From contig NZ_LT896716.1 of assembly GCF_900187405.1 (NCBI RefSeq), positions 744,001 through 808,000 of the forward strand: DNA of 64,000 bases, read 5' to 3'. The notes under the pieces were generated by a model. The model was given only the letters and a program-made list of their open reading frames with translations, searched no databases and was not told the DNA's origin. This stretch comes from Geobacter sp. DSM 9736 (GTDB lineage: Bacteria; Desulfobacterota; Desulfuromonadia; Geobacterales; Geobacteraceae). Shown here one piece after another: positions 33,288 through 39,694 of this stretch. Position numbers and translations under genes: made by a program. Every line of letters starts with the position of its first letter. Position 1 is the stretch's first letter.

Positions 33288-34355
33288 TCAAGGTTCGACT
33301 TTCAGTCCATGCGGACTGAAATGCCGGCGCTGGAACCAGAAGGCGACGTTCACGAGCCCTATCATCACAGGAACCTCCACGAGAGGCCCGATGACGGCGG
33401 CGAAGGCAGCTCCGGAATTGAGCCCGAACACAGCCACTGCCACGGCAATTGCCAACTCGAAATTGTTGCTCGCGGCGGTAAAGGCAAGGGTCGTAGTTTT
33501 GGAGTAATCCGCTCCGAGTTTTTTTCCCATCCAGAAGGAGACGAGGAACATGACGACGAAGTAGATCAGCATCGGGATTGCGATCCGGATTACGTCGAGA
33601 GGGAGCTGGACGATGAGGTTCCCCTTGAGGCTGAACATCACGACGATCGTGAAGAGGAGTGCAATCAAGGTTATCGGGCCGATGCGCGGGACGACTTCGC
33701 GGTGGTATCGATCCACGCCCATAGCCTTGACGCCAACGAACCGCGTCACCGCTCCCGCAATACATGGGATGCCGAGATAGATGAAGACGCTTTCGGCGAT
33801 CTGGCCAATGCTGACATCCACGACAGCCCCGGAAACCCCGAGCAGCGGCGGGAGGATGGTTATGAAGAACCATGCATAGATGCTGTAGAAGAGGACCTGG
33901 AAAATGCTGTTGAAGGCAACAAGTCCGGCAGCGTATTCGGTGTTACCTTTGGCCAGTTCATTCCATACGATGACCATGGCGATGCAGCGGGCAAGGCCTA
34001 TCATGATGAGGCCGACGAGGTACTCCGGCTTGTCATGGAGAAAGACAATGGCGAGGATGAACATCAGGACCGGACCGATCAGCCAGTTCTGCACGAGCGA
34101 CAGTCCGAGAATCTTCTTGTTGTGGAATACCTCGGGCATTTCCTCGTACTTCACCTTGGCAAAAGGGGGATACATCATAAGAATGAGGCCAGCTGCGATA
34201 GGTATGTTCGTAGTCCCAACCTGAAAGAGGTTGATGAAGTGTTCAATGCCGGGGACGAAGTAGCCGAGGCCGACACCGAGAGCCATGGCTGCGAAAATCC
34301 AAAAGGTCAGCCAACGGTCAAGAAAAGACAGCTTTCGCGAGATACTTTCAGACAT
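33288..34355 (-). CDS. acr3: ACR3-family arsenite efflux transporter
   Basis: A 355-residue inner-membrane protein with about ten helices, belonging to the ACR3 arsenite permease family. The conserved [13 protein letters not shown], with the essential Cys, and [12 protein letters not shown] are seen. It expels arsenite, and sometimes antimonite, using the proton gradient. ATG 34355 has GGAGG 9 nt upstream; the earlier frame to 34370 is less likely. A perfect ArsR-type inverted repeat at 34419-34438 lies upstream, so expression should be induced by arsenic through the adjacent ArsR. Confidence 0.96.
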
Positions 34356-34418
34356 TACACTTCCTCCCAAATTGTCACGTAATTATATTTATTCAATGAG
34401 CTGTTTTTCCTTATTGCA

Positions 34419-34455: not shown

Positions 34456-34794
34456 TCAGGCGCACCTGTTGTCGCTGCCGAATCCCGCTAACGTTTCGCG
34501 GTCTGCGATGGTTGTCTTGTTCTTGAGGAGCTGCTTTTTCAGGATGGGTATGAGCTCCCTCTGAATATCCCCGCTGCCTGCAATCGAATAATAGATCCAG
34601 AGTCCGCAACGGCGATCGTTAACCCAACCAGCCTTCCGGAGATGGCCAAGGTGGCGCGATATGGTTGGCTGAGGGAGTTTGAGCGCCGCAATGATGTCAC
34701 ACACACATAACTCCCCTTCCGCAAGAAGGAGAGCCAGTATTCGAAGCCGTGTCTCATCGGCCAGACTTTTGTAGAGTTGAGCGTCCTGTTTCAT
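34456..34794 (-). CDS. arsR: ArsR-family arsenic-responsive repressor
   Basis: A 112-residue ArsR/SmtB winged helix. ELCVCDII carries the CVCD metal site on the recognition helix region, diagnostic for As(III)/Sb(III) sensing, and LPQPTISRHLGHLRKAGWV is the DNA-reading helix and wing. The start is ATG 34794; the frame runs up to 34968 but over the promoter. The promoter reads TTGACT-17-TATATT on the minus strand, with the operator placed within it. It should repress itself, acr3 and possibly the divergent cytochrome operon. Confidence 0.93.
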   Translation of the reverse strand: MKQDAQLYKSLADETRLRILALLLAEGELCVCDIIAALKLPQPTISRHLGHLRKAGWVNDRRCGLWIYYSIAGSGDIQRELIPILKKQLLKNKTTIADRETLAGFGSDNRCA

Positions 34795-34864: not shown

Positions 34865-35179
34865 ATGAAAGGCCTTAGGTCAAATATTGCGGGAGTGGGG
34901 TTTTTGATGTTTGCGGTCACTGCGTTTGCGGTCGTTGGCGGGGGAGACATCGTTCTCAAGGGAGGCAAAGCTGGGCCTGCGCATTTCAGTCACAGTGTAC
35001 ACGTCGAAGCGGCTAACACAGGCTGCAAGGAGTGCCATCCCAAACTCTACTTGGACGTGAAACAGCACAAGTCCGTAAAGATGGCAGATATGCAGAAGGG
35101 AAAATCCTGCGGAGCCTGCCACAACGGCAAAAGGGCGTTCGGCGTCAAGGGAGACTGCGCCAAGTGTCATAAAAAGTGA
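34865..35179 (+). CDS. Three-haem cytochrome c7-type protein
   Basis: A 104-residue periplasmic cytochrome with a signal peptide (residues 8-25). Three CxxCH motifs are seen (CKECH, CGACH, CAKCH), together with HFSHSVHV supplying distal His ligands, as in the PpcA/cytochrome c7 fold of about 70-80 mature residues. It would pass electrons to or from the downstream oxidoreductase. The ribosome site is GGGGGAG. It is the first gene of the rightward operon that starts beside the ArsR operator. Its N-terminal part is longer than in PpcA. Confidence 0.9.
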   Translation: MKGLRSNIAGVGFLMFAVTAFAVVGGGDIVLKGGKAGPAHFSHSVHVEAANTGCKECHPKLYLDVKQHKSVKMADMQKGKSCGACHNGKRAFGVKGDCAKCHKK

Positions 35180-35189
35180 GGAGGAACAT

Positions 35190-35488
35190 ATGTTATCCAA
35201 GAGACAGCAGGAAGCTTATGTAAATTTTTATGATTCCGCTCGAAAGAATACTTCCTTGAGCCAAAGGTGACCTTGATGGTCCATTTTGCAGCCGCTATTT
35301 CTCAAGGATGCTACCCGTGAATGGAGCACTACCTTGGCGTTGCCAAGGAAGAAGGGTTAACAGAAGATGAGATCGGTGCGGTCCAGGCAATTGTGATGGC
35401 AGTTTCTGCAGGGAAAGTTAATGCCCAGGTGCGAGAGGCCGCGACTCGGCAGGCCGCTAAAGAAAAGAAAAGATCATTGCAGTCATAG
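35190..35488 (+). pseudogene. AhpD/CMD-like selenoprotein gene with frameshift
   Basis: The start is ATG 35190 with GAGGAGG upstream. The first 20-odd codons (MLSKRQQEAYVNFYDSARKN) are in one frame, and the rest (LEPKVTLMVHFAAAISQGC...) continues in the -1 frame from about 35255 to TAG 35488. One base is missing near 35250, or a -1 shift occurs. In the second frame, TGA 35318-35320 stands at the second Cys of the redox motif: C-Y-P-(TGA)-M-E-H, like CxxC-x2-H in AhpD/carboxymuconolactone-decarboxylase proteins. AhpD-like selenoproteins are known in bacteria. After the TGA the frame stays open for 55 codons with a natural ending. It would be a small thiol/selenol peroxidase-type or arsenic-linked protein. 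Confidence 0.7.
35318..35348 (+). promoter_or_regulatory. Candidate bacterial SECIS element
   Basis: After the in-frame TGA, 11 nt separate it from a perfect 7-bp hairpin CCTTGGC-GTT-GCCAAGG (35332-35348), with ACCC (35313-35316) and GGGT (35353-35356) as a possible lower stem. The E. coli fdhF SECIS also needs 11 nt between UGA and the upper stem-loop and a G at the start of the loop; here the loop begins with G. Confidence 0.6.
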
Positions 35489-35513
35489 ATAAGAAAACAA
35501 CCAGGAGGGCTTC

Positions 35514-36287
35514 ATGGAGAAGGATGTTTTGGTCAGGATGCAGGAAGACCTGGAGCGGGCTCTGAAAAAACCTGCCGAGAAGCGACGATGGGCGATGCTT
35601 CTCGATACGCGCAAGTGCACGAAATGCAGCGCCTGCACCGTTGCCTGCGCGTCTGAAAACAAGCTTCCTCCGGGGCAGTGGTACCGCCCGGTATGGGAAG
35701 AAGAGAAGGGAACCTACCCGAAATTGCAGCGGATAGCACTTCCGAGGCCCTGTCTCCAGTGCGACAAGCCGCCATGCGTATCGGTATGCCCGGTGAAAGG
35801 TCCTGACGGCGCGACATGGAAAGAGACCAAAGGGATTGGCGCCGGCATCGTTCCGATCAACTATGCCAAATGCATCGGATGCGGCAAATGCGTACCCGGC
35901 TGCCCTTACGGCGCACGGTTTCTCGACAATGGAAAATTCCATACTGAGGGAGCACCCCGGATCGAGAAGTATGAAACAATGCCTTCATTCGAATATGGCA
36001 AGAACTGGCCTCGCCAGGGAAAGAACCAGCCGGTGGGTAACGCCCGCAAGTGCCACTTCTGCATGCATCGTCTTGCGAACGGTATGCTTCCGCAGTGTAT
36101 CAGTTCCTGCGTCTGCCGCATGGGATACTTCGGTGACGAGAATGACGCAGAAAGCCTCATCGCCCAGACCATAAAGGCGAACAAGGCAAACCTTCAGATC
36201 CTCAAGAAGAACCTGGGAACGCTCCCCCGCGTCTACTATCTGGGGCAGACGGACCTGTCCATCTTCAACAAGCACCTGAAAGCCTGA
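35514..36287 (+). CDS. Four-cluster Fe-S subunit of a molybdopterin oxidoreductase
   Basis: A 257-residue ferredoxin-type electron-transfer subunit like TtrB, ArrB or PsrB. Cys clusters read CTKCSACTVAC, CLQCDKPPCVSVCP, CIGCGKCVPGCP and a last group CHFCM...CISSC, consistent with four 4Fe-4S centres. It has no Tat signal and would be exported with the catalytic partner. AGGAGG precedes the ATG. The catalytic gene follows 170 bp later, after a repeat element. No NrfD-type membrane subunit is nearby, so the c7 cytochrome may be the electron partner. Confidence 0.9.
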   Translation: MEKDVLVRMQEDLERALKKPAEKRRWAMLLDTRKCTKCSACTVACASENKLPPGQWYRPVWEEEKGTYPKLQRIALPRPCLQCDKPPCVSVCPVKGPDGATWKETKGIGAGIVPINYAKCIGCGKCVPGCPYGARFLDNGKFHTEGAPRIEKYETMPSFEYGKNWPRQGKNQPVGNARKCHFCMHRLANGMLPQCISSCVCRMGYFGDENDAESLIAQTIKANKANLQILKKNLGTLPRVYYLGQTDLSIFNKHLKA

Positions 36288-36290
36288 CAA

Positions 36291-36412
36291 GGCTGTTGAA
36301 AAACAGCCGTCTCGCCGGCGTCCTTGAAAGGCGCCGTTTGCGTCGTAGCGGTGCACTGCTGTGCTTGCGTGGGGCTTCTATGGGTCGACGATCTGACTGT
36401 TTTTGAACAGCC
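36291..36412. repeat. Inverted-repeat element (MITE/REP-like)
   Basis: A 122-bp element between the Fe-S and Mo-subunit genes. The left end GGCTGTTGAAAAACAG (36291-36306) and the right end CTGTTTTTGAACAGCC (36397-36412) are inverted repeats with one mismatch, and the left end itself forms a GGCTGTT/AACAGCC hairpin. The interior has further small hairpins. There is no coding sequence. It resembles non-autonomous mobile repeats; copy number cannot be judged here. Confidence 0.55.
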
Positions 36413-36457
36413 CGACATTTGAATAAATGGGCTGTGACATAATTTGCGGAGGGAAAA

Positions 36458-39400
36458 ATGGCTGACAAAATGGCTGATACTATAAAAGAAGAAAAAGCAG
36501 GCGTCTCACGTAGAAAATTTTTAAAAACTTCGGCAGTGGTTGGTTGTGGAGCACTCGTCGCATCGCAGCTCGACTTCGCGCGTGGCCTGATCGCGCGGGT
36601 AGAGGCGGGAGAAATCTCGCCGTTCGACGCGTACGAATTGATGAAGGCTGAGAATACGCTCTACACCGTGTGCCTGAACTGCAATACCGGCTGCGGGATC
36701 AAGGTCAAGATCATGGATGGCGTCGCGGTCAAGATCGACGGCAACCCCTACAATCCGTTCACGCTGCATCCGCATCATCCCATGAAGGCCGAACTCTCTA
36801 AAATGGCCAAGGTGGACGGGGCGATATGTCCGAAGGGTCAAGCGGCGCACCAGGGTGCCTATGACCCTTACCGGATTCGCAAGGTGCTGAAGCGTGCCGG
36901 GAAGCGTGGTGAAGGGAAATGGATTTCAGTCCCCTTCGATCAGGCAGTGGACGAGATAGTGAATGGCGGACTCCTTTTCAAGCACGTTCCGGGAGAGGAA
37001 AACCGGCTCGTGACGGGTCTGAAGGACGTATATGCGTTGAGGGACCACAAAGTGTACGAGGAGATGGCAGCCGATGTAGCCGCGATCCGCAAAAAGAAGA
37101 TGACGGTTGCAGATTTCAAGGCGAAGCACGCCGCAAACCTGGACAAGCTCATTGATCCGGAACACCCCGATTTCGGGCCCAAGAACAATCAGTTCGTCTA
37201 CTTCTGGGGGCGAAAGAAGGGCGGACGCAGCGATTTTTCCAAGCGCTTCACGGAGCAGTTCGGTACCGTCAACACCCACGGACACACCACCGTGTGTCAG
37301 GGCTCCCTCTACTTCGCCTGCAAGGCTATGAGCGAGCAGTACACCGGCAGCGACTTCAAGGAGGGGCAGAAGTTCTACTGGCAGACCGACCTTGAGAACG
37401 CCGAGTACGTTCTCTTCGTCGGCTCAAACCTCTTCGACGGGAACTACGGCCCACCGAACCGCACCCCGCGGCTCATTTCGCGGCTCGTGGAAGGGAAGAC
37501 CAAGTGCACTGTCCTCGATCCCCGTTTTACCAAACTCGCCGCCAAAGGAAACAGGTGGGTTCCCATCCTCCCCGGCACCGATGCCGCCTTCGCCATGGGG
37601 ATGACTCGGTGGATACTGGAGAACAAGCGGTTCGATGCCAGATACCTTGCAAACTGCAACAAGGCTGCTGCGGCTGCGGACAAGGAATCGACCTGGTCGA
37701 ATGGTGCTTGGCTCGTGAAGCTGGACAAAGAGGGCAAGCCGACGACATTCCTTCGGGCGTCGGAAATCGGGCTGAAGGCCAAGGAAGTGCGCAAGGACAA
37801 GGACGGGAAGGATTTCGACTTTGAATACCTCGTGGCGATGAAGGACGGGAAGCCGGTGGCCTTCGATCCCAACGACGATAAGGAGGCGGTGGAGGGAGAA
37901 CTTTTCGTCACGGCAGAGATCCCGGCGGAGAAGGGGCCTGTTAAAGTTAAGAGCTCGCTTCAGATCATGCTGGAGGCTGCGCAGGAGAAGAGTCTGGCCG
38001 ATTACGCCAAGATCTGCGGCATCGATCCGGGCGTCATTGAGGCGACGGCAAAGGAATTTACATCATTCGGGAAGAAGGCGTCGGTGGATATGCACCGGGG
38101 GCCTGCCCAGCACACCAACGGTTTTTACAACATCGGGTCGTTGATGAACCTCAACCTTCTGGTGGGCAACTTCGACTGGAAGGGGGGAATGATTGCCCCT
38201 TCGACCTACAATGCCGACGGTACCAAAACCGAGAAGCAACCCTTCAACTTCAAGAAGATAACTCCTAAGGGGCCAAAGGCATTCGGGCTTTCGGTCATCC
38301 GCCATGATGCCAAGTACGAGGAGTCGACGCTCTTCAAGGGGAAGGAGAGCTATCCCGCCAAGCGCAACTGGTGGCCGCTTGCGTCAGATGTGTATGAAGA
38401 GATCCTCCCCTCCATCGCCGATGCCTATCCTTACCCCGTAAAGGTAATGTTCTCCTACATGGGTGCGCCAACCTATTCACTTCCGGCAGGTCATACGAAT
38501 ATCGACGCACTCACGAATCTCGACAGGCTTCCCCTTTACTTCGCCAGCGATATTCTGGTCGGTACGACTTCCATGTACGCCGACTATATCTTCCCCGACC
38601 TTCACTTTCTGGAGCGCTGGGAAATGCAGGGCTCACACCCCAACATGCCGGTGAAGGTCCAGCCGCTGCGGAATCCGGTCATTGCTTCCCCCAACGAGGT
38701 GGTGAAGGTGTTCGGAGAAGAGCAGCCGATCTCCTACGAGACGCTGTGGCTTGCTCTGGCCGAACGGTTGGGGCTTCCCGGCTTCGGCCCGAACGGCTTC
38801 GGCCAAAGGCAGCCGCTTGCCCGTCCGGACGACTTCTACCTGCGGATGGTGGCGAACCTCGCCAATGACGGGAAGGAGCCGGTTCCTGATGCCTCTTCGG
38901 AAGAGATCGAAATATTCCTGAAAGGGAGGCGTCACCTGCCGAAGAACGTGTTCGATCCGGAGAGATGGAAGGCCGTCTGCGGAGGCAACTGGGCCAAAGC
39001 CGTCTATGTTCTTAATCGTGGCGGACGCTTCGACACCCAGGAGAACTCCTATAAAGGTGATCACGTAGCCAACAAGTACGGCAAGCAGATCAACCTCTAT
39101 CAGGAGAAGACGTACAAGTGCAAGGATGCCTTCACCGGGAAAAACTACTACGGTATGGCGCGGTATGTGCCCGTCGCGGATACGCTGGATAAAGCCCCGA
39201 CCGAGCTTTCCAAAGGTTACGACCTGCACCTCATCACCCAGCGGGACATCCGGATGACCAAGTCCCGTACTATCACCCATCAGTACCTGACGGAGATGAT
39301 GCCGGAGAACGAGATCATTCTTAATACCGGGGATGCCAAACGCTTGGGAATCAAGGACGGGCAGAAGGTAAAGGTGGTCTCGGCTACGAATCCGGAAGGT

Positions 39401-39694
39401 GTGTGGGACCTGAAAAACGGGACGAAGAAACCGATGGTCGGCAAGGTGAAGGTGACTGAGACTATCCGGCCCGGCATCATCACCTTCACCCTCGGCCACG
39501 GCATGTGGGCTACCGGGGCGGACGACATGGAGATCGACGGCAAGGTCGTGAAGGGTGATCCGCGCCGCGCCCGTGGGGTGCATGCAAATGCCGCAATGTG
39601 GACCGACCCGCATCTGAAGAACACCTGCATGATAGACAAGGTGGGGGGTAGCGTCTCCTTCTACGACACAAAGGTGAAGCTGGTAAAAGTTTAG
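36458..39694 (+). CDS. Tat-exported molybdopterin oxidoreductase (TtrA/ArrA-like)
   Basis: A 1078-residue catalytic subunit of the DMSO-reductase family. A Tat motif SRRKFLK lies at 17-23. An N-terminal 4Fe-4S set is at Cys72, 75, 79 and 124 (CLNCNTGC, then ICPKG). The likely molybdenum ligand is Cys280 in TTVCQGS. The length fits tetrathionate reductase TtrA (about 1000) better than arsenate reductase ArrA (about 850), and the insertions around 170-240 and 420-500 are TtrA-like. Its operon begins beside an ArsR operator, so arsenate, or another oxyanion such as tetrathionate or selenate, must be considered. It probably works in the periplasm with the Fe-S subunit and c7 cytochrome. Confidence 0.88.
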   Translation: MADKMADTIKEEKAGVSRRKFLKTSAVVGCGALVASQLDFARGLIARVEAGEISPFDAYELMKAENTLYTVCLNCNTGCGIKVKIMDGVAVKIDGNPYNPFTLHPHHPMKAELSKMAKVDGAICPKGQAAHQGAYDPYRIRKVLKRAGKRGEGKWISVPFDQAVDEIVNGGLLFKHVPGEENRLVTGLKDVYALRDHKVYEEMAADVAAIRKKKMTVADFKAKHAANLDKLIDPEHPDFGPKNNQFVYFWGRKKGGRSDFSKRFTEQFGTVNTHGHTTVCQGSLYFACKAMSEQYTGSDFKEGQKFYWQTDLENAEYVLFVGSNLFDGNYGPPNRTPRLISRLVEGKTKCTVLDPRFTKLAAKGNRWVPILPGTDAAFAMGMTRWILENKRFDARYLANCNKAAAAADKESTWSNGAWLVKLDKEGKPTTFLRASEIGLKAKEVRKDKDGKDFDFEYLVAMKDGKPVAFDPNDDKEAVEGELFVTAEIPAEKGPVKVKSSLQIMLEAAQEKSLADYAKICGIDPGVIEATAKEFTSFGKKASVDMHRGPAQHTNGFYNIGSLMNLNLLVGNFDWKGGMIAPSTYNADGTKTEKQPFNFKKITPKGPKAFGLSVIRHDAKYEESTLFKGKESYPAKRNWWPLASDVYEEILPSIADAYPYPVKVMFSYMGAPTYSLPAGHTNIDALTNLDRLPLYFASDILVGTTSMYADYIFPDLHFLERWEMQGSHPNMPVKVQPLRNPVIASPNEVVKVFGEEQPISYETLWLALAERLGLPGFGPNGFGQRQPLARPDDFYLRMVANLANDGKEPVPDASSEEIEIFLKGRRHLPKNVFDPERWKAVCGGNWAKAVYVLNRGGRFDTQENSYKGDHVANKYGKQINLYQEKTYKCKDAFTGKNYYGMARYVPVADTLDKAPTELSKGYDLHLITQRDIRMTKSRTITHQYLTEMMPENEIILNTGDAKRLGIKDGQKVKVVSATNPEGVWDLKNGTKKPMVGKVKVTETIRPGIITFTLGHGMWATGADDMEIDGKVVKGDPRRARGVHANAAMWTDPHLKNTCMIDKVGGSVSFYDTKVKLVKV

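Follow-up and report, generated by a model that had tools for sequence, protein, structure and literature searches.

Positions 35190-35488 (+) of the window, the 64-kb stretch of DNA analysed here, hold a CMD/AhpD-like selenoprotein gene that is split between two reading frames, a feature confirmed as real in the sequence. The history that we favour, with fair confidence, runs as follows. An extra copy of a CxxU CMD/AhpD-like selenoprotein gene would have been acquired, probably by horizontal transfer, and would have landed in an arsenic-linked molybdenum-enzyme operon, where it now separates the c7 cytochrome gene from the Fe-S gene. One base would then have been lost near 35250, and translation of this copy would now halt at 35268, so that the gene would be a newly formed pseudogene or, at most, one that yields little product. 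An intact paralogue in the same genome could supply the activity. The features of the locus are collected in Table 1.

Table 1. Features of the split selenoprotein gene and its operon (positions in the window)
Feature	Position	Strand	Basis
Acr3 arsenite efflux transporter	33288..34370	-	TIGR00832, 449.6 bits (cut-off 282.8)
ArsR/SmtB-family regulator	34456..34794	-	NF033788, over cut-off
c7-type triheme cytochrome, operon gene upstream	34865..35179	+	TIGR04257, over cut-off
Shine-Dalgarno GGAGGA (itself at ~35178-35183) and spacer, upstream of the ATG	35178..35189	+	Sequence
Gene part 1, frame 0: N-terminus of the family, MLSKRQQEAYVNFYDSARKNT, followed by residues out of frame up to the TGA stop	35190..35270	+	Sequence; HMM positions 1-26
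Frame change to -1 (one base short)	35247..35255 by alignment; outer limits 35234-35268 by stop codons	+	Alignment with paralogue and relatives
Gene part 2, frame -1: CMD/AhpD-like core, which contains CYPU, and the C-terminal helix	35252..35488	+	Translation, homology, PF02627
ATG in frame -1 just past the stop of frame 0, where a shortened product might restart (speculative)	35276..35278	+	Sequence
TGA almost certainly read as selenocysteine, CxxU	35318..35320	+	Sec/Cys pairs in relatives, SECIS, sel genes
Bacterial SECIS hairpin, 7 bp, loop GUU, loop 18 nt past the TGA	35332..35348	+	Comparative test and published model
4Fe-4S electron-transfer subunit, next gene downstream	35514..36287	+	Profile searches
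Molybdopterin oxidoreductase, Tat-type signal, TtrA/ArrA-like	36458..39694	+	Profile searches

Structure of the split gene

Read directly from the ATG at 35190, frame 0 gives MLSKRQQEAYVNFYDSARKNTSLSQR and ends at the TGA at 35268-35270. The -1 frame reads FLEPKVTLMVHFAAAISQGCYP-TGA-MEHYLGVAKEEGL...KRSLQS; the part that follows the TGA is MEHYLGVAKEEGLTEDEIGAVQAIVMAVSAGKVNAQVREAATRQAAKEKKRSLQS, up to the stop at 35486-35488. A family HMM was built without the broken gene and run against its own genome. It matched the locus twice, with model positions 1-26 in frame 0 at 35190-35267 (E 4e-4) and with model positions 11-94 in frame -1 at 35219-35470 (E 2e-33). Chance similarity is excluded because the -1 half also matches the paralogue (E 4e-28) and sequences from 61 other genomes of the class (E 1e-26 to 1e-5). 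An earlier, sequence-only reading had proposed a strong ribosome site and a one-base break near 35250. The first is present as GGAGGA ahead of the ATG. The second is borne out by the two-frame HMM matches, by the alignment, and by the distance from ATG to stop, which, at 299 nt, is a single nucleotide less than 100 codons.

The frame break

Intact relatives read the family consensus MLPxKQxKAYxxFYDSARxNxILDPKTTLLVHLAAAMAxGCxPU in one piece, and the frame of the broken gene thus changes between its own N-T and L-E, at about 35247-35255. Single-frame read-through is found in 60 of the 66 distinct family sequences. The six exceptions are the window gene, three N-terminally damaged copies (L046, L076 and L085), a contig-edge fragment (L091) and a copy from a metagenome-assembled genome (MAG) that is also frameshifted, but at another place (L113). 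Apart from the UGA, the window copy lacks the single continuous reading frame, and it probably makes no full protein any more.

Residues invariant in the family are retained in the -1 half, whose comparison with the nearest relatives (pN 0.12-0.18, pS 0.63-0.91) points to strong past purifying selection. The break would therefore be either young or a sequence error. Both readings accommodate the shortfall of a single base, and the retention of every conserved residue, of the Shine-Dalgarno sequence and of the SECIS element, with pN far below pS, counts against the favoured history in that it would also be expected of a gene still in use or of an error of assembly. An assembly or base-calling error, with the operon of the living cell carrying a second CxxU selenoprotein gene that is intact, is accordingly a serious, though clearly less probable, explanation; the genomes compared include one of the genus, this one, and hence a single copy of the locus. 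Against such an error, the genome is one finished contig, and the long housekeeping genes of the same 64-kb window and the 1078-aa molybdenum subunit have open, unbroken frames, which argues for a low rate of indel errors. The unbroken genes speak for a real mutation without proving it.

Expression of the window gene despite the break is improbable. The ribosome would have to slip by -1 on A-AAG (35243-35246) or start again at the ATG at 35276; the resulting selenoprotein would depend on two recoding events or be without its first helix. The A-AAG does lie inside the interval permitted for the break, which offers only single-codon slips of this kind; AAAGG and a TGA stand just ahead of the ATG at 35276, and the -1 half is well conserved. 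However, the relatives are in one frame here, and a product restarted at that ATG would miss, from the predicted fold, the whole of helix 1 (residues 4-18) and some of helix 2. A scan for slippery heptamers of the form X XXY YYZ found none in the usable interval; the sole one, at 35222, precedes the -1-frame stop at 35231 and is unusable. Programmed -1 frameshifting, which had been offered as one option in the sequence-only reading, was rejected on the absence of a usable heptamer, the absence of conservation and the straight read-through of the relatives. A doubly recoded functional gene, in which a -1 slip (or the restart) and Sec insertion together would give a selenoprotein tuned to the arsenic-linked operon, is given only a slight chance. 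Because 60 relatives read through and no slippery heptamer falls in the usable interval, the frame break most probably reflects the recent loss of a single base, or else an error of assembly.

Selenocysteine and the SECIS hairpin

A CxxU followed by a His is the AhpD-type redox motif. In the window gene, CYPU is encoded at 35309-35320, with TGA in place of the codon for the second active-site cysteine, and the His codon follows at 35327-35329. The codon at this site was compared in the 66 distinct sequences, window copy included, and is TGA in 54, TGC in 10, TTA in one and CGA in one; Sec and Cys thus replace each other among homologues. Overall, 62 of the 277 genomes of the class hold a family relative. 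Most relatives carry one TGA, which lies at this codon wherever the sequence was read, and the remaining ones mostly have Cys.

The finished contig (3,957,683 bases, or 3.96 Mb; completeness 99.99) also encodes the selenocysteine machinery, with selB at C1:2919096, tRNA-Sec (selC) at C1:1417762, selA at C1:3439621 and selD at C1:2274293. All four score over curated cut-offs. The selD gene itself holds one TGA.

In the TGA forms of the family, a hairpin of 7 bp begins 11 nt past the TGA. Pairing is kept in about 98% of cells in the Sec forms; sliding one side lowers it to 18-58%. The Cys forms, from which the hairpin is gone, show 49%. In a set of 25 sequences, 14 compensatory cells were counted, as against 3.0 in shuffles, a value reached in none of 500. 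Folding of the window hairpin as a single sequence is mildly significant (z -1.6), and the comparative test is decisive. The published bacterial SECIS model has a G in the first two loop positions, a loop 16-37 nt from the UGA and a stem of 4-16 bp (PMC13188914). The window hairpin agrees with this model in the length of its stem, the size of its loop, the G that opens the loop and the distance of 18 nt. Two further sequences, L044 (TTA, Leu) and L085 (CGA, Arg), still keep the hairpin, as expected from recent loss of Sec, which both apparently underwent; one of them has lost its N-terminus.

A reading of the TGA as an ordinary stop, with the downstream similarity as a relic, is very improbable, even in a gene already broken upstream, since TGA is the commonest codon at the site and goes with the hairpin, the Cys forms are without it, and the sel genes are present; hairpin covariation and the Sec/Cys pairs led us to reject it. 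In our view, comparative sequence evidence settles the Sec reading of the gene family, and Sec insertion in the intact relatives is inferred from it. The Sec in the second Cys position of CxxC, the occurrence of U or C in related genomes and the presence of selA, selB, selC and selD, all raised in the sequence-only reading, have thus held up.

Protein family and fold

The -1 half alone scores 35.8 bits against PF02627 (gathering cut-off 23), which places it in the CMD/AhpD superfamily. The fold predicted for the intact relative L056 (pLDDT 87) is an all-helical CMD fold of four helices, with C41 and U44 at the start of the helix at 42-54, and it matches PDB entries 3bey and 7y4r (RclX) and the AhpD core. 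The AhpD-like assignment originally made from the letters alone therefore stands. The same solved proteins, 3bey (O27018) and 7y4r, are the best matches by sequence profile, at 21-24% identity, but judging by their entry titles they are not selenoproteins.

CMD-like and distant AhpD CxxU selenoproteins have already been catalogued (PMC13188914; PMC1794560). The CMD-like (PF02627) or GSU3128 (NF041047) selenoproteins likewise have a small single-domain CMD fold with Sec second in CxxU and occur in Geobacter and its relatives. Against NF041047 (cut-off 110), however, the window gene, frame-broken as it is, scores 27.3 bits and the intact relatives score 26-37, which sets them apart as a separate subgroup. 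The C-terminal domain of the ArsM/AhpD fusion (NF041537) and of MduS (NF045649) is the best profile match of the intact relatives (E 7e-16 to 2e-11), and the stand-alone gene is a neighbour of arsM in L055, L061 and L022/L063. Unlike these two families, the subgroup consists of a stand-alone domain with no fused methyltransferase, far under the whole-protein cut-offs; the window gene, a single domain, reaches 34.8 bits against NF041537, whose cut-off is 510. The arsenosugar biosynthesis-associated peroxidase-like family TIGR04169 is also AhpD-like and found in an arsenic context, but the present family scores 21-33 bits against a cut-off of 120. Membership in the GSU3128, TIGR04169 or ArsM fusion families was rejected on these scores. 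The subgroup is a known protein type in outline, yet it passes none of the specific NCBIfam models matched. A role in thiol/selenol redox chemistry or metal(loid) binding may be proposed, with about an even chance of being right.

The operon and the origin of the copy

The c7/Fe-S/molybdenum operon (34865-39694) lies beside arsR and acr3, and related loci are L115-L132. The arsenic linkage suggested in the sequence-only reading is real here, through acr3 and arsR, and it recurs in the clade, through arsM and acr3. The molybdenum subunit scores 111.7 bits against the ArrA model NF041714 (cut-off 1600) and 475 against the TtrA profile (cut-off 1750), far below both cut-offs; arsenate and antimonate are among the candidate substrates. 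The gene had been placed between the c7 cytochrome and the molybdenum oxidoreductase; the cytochrome side of this placement is correct, and the next gene downstream is that of the Fe-S subunit (35514-36287), with the molybdenum gene starting at 36458.

The molybdenum subunit has relatives, with identities of up to 86%, in 17 further genomes of this class, which makes 18 of 277 when its own is counted. At the junctions read, where both genes were found, the gap between the c7 and Fe-S genes is a few to about 50 nt, with no gene between. It follows that the selenoprotein gene was inserted in this lineage, late and not as an integral part. Its status as a core part of the molybdenum operon was rejected on its absence from these junctions, and the specific role in this operon that had been proposed for it found no support.

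The intact Sec paralogue (L018) lies at C1:1870580-1870861 and is 65% identical to the window gene, whose best match, at 77%, is L066 from a Myxococcota MAG. A tree of 64 columns groups the window gene, with weak support, with Desulfobacterota and Neomarinimicrobiota sequences. Duplication of the paralogue as the source is not favoured, given these identities and the different, weakly supported tree positions of the two genes.

Genomic neighbourhood of the family

Members of clade A, which holds the window gene, lie in many cases beside hgcAB, arsM or acr3, and those of clade B beside hslO (Hsp33) or selA. In Geobacterales and one Myxococcota MAG, an intact Cys or Sec form stands directly 3' of the mercury methylation genes hgcA-hgcB (L019/L057, L020/L100, L021/L060, L023, L024/L064, L025, L026/L067, L034/L070 and L066). 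The CMD gene lies 409-428 nt behind hgcA in 8 of the 13 order-level relatives listed, and hgcA-hgcB score over the NCBIfam cut-offs where tested. Oryzomonas japonica, a culturable member of Geobacterales, has a Cys form in this place. In the literature, no mention was found of a CMD/alkylhydroperoxidase gene adjoining hgcA; a selenoproteome review lists both, separately. The genome studied here has hgcAB as well (L133, C1:2364764), in this case with no CMD gene behind.

Another subgroup stands directly upstream of selA, and of selB where checked (L042, L044, L047, L087, L088, L092, L096-L099, L101, L102, L104, L105 and L108), and a further one upstream of hslO. The relative G187 encodes, within its arsenic island, another and distinct member of the CMD family, whose tail is rich in Cys (L163, 10990-11274); its gene adjoins a thioredoxin-like and a DsbD-like gene.

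On its own, the broken copy is of modest interest. The analysis adds SECIS and Sec/Cys data, backed by covariation, on a subgroup of stand-alone CxxU CMD proteins whose scores lie under the tested NCBIfam cut-offs, and the locus may serve as an example of how such a selenoprotein gene moves from one operon to another and is later broken. Since the clade recurs next to arsM, acr3 and, most of all, hgcAB, a role in handling arsenic or mercury through thiol/selenol chemistry can be put directly to the test.
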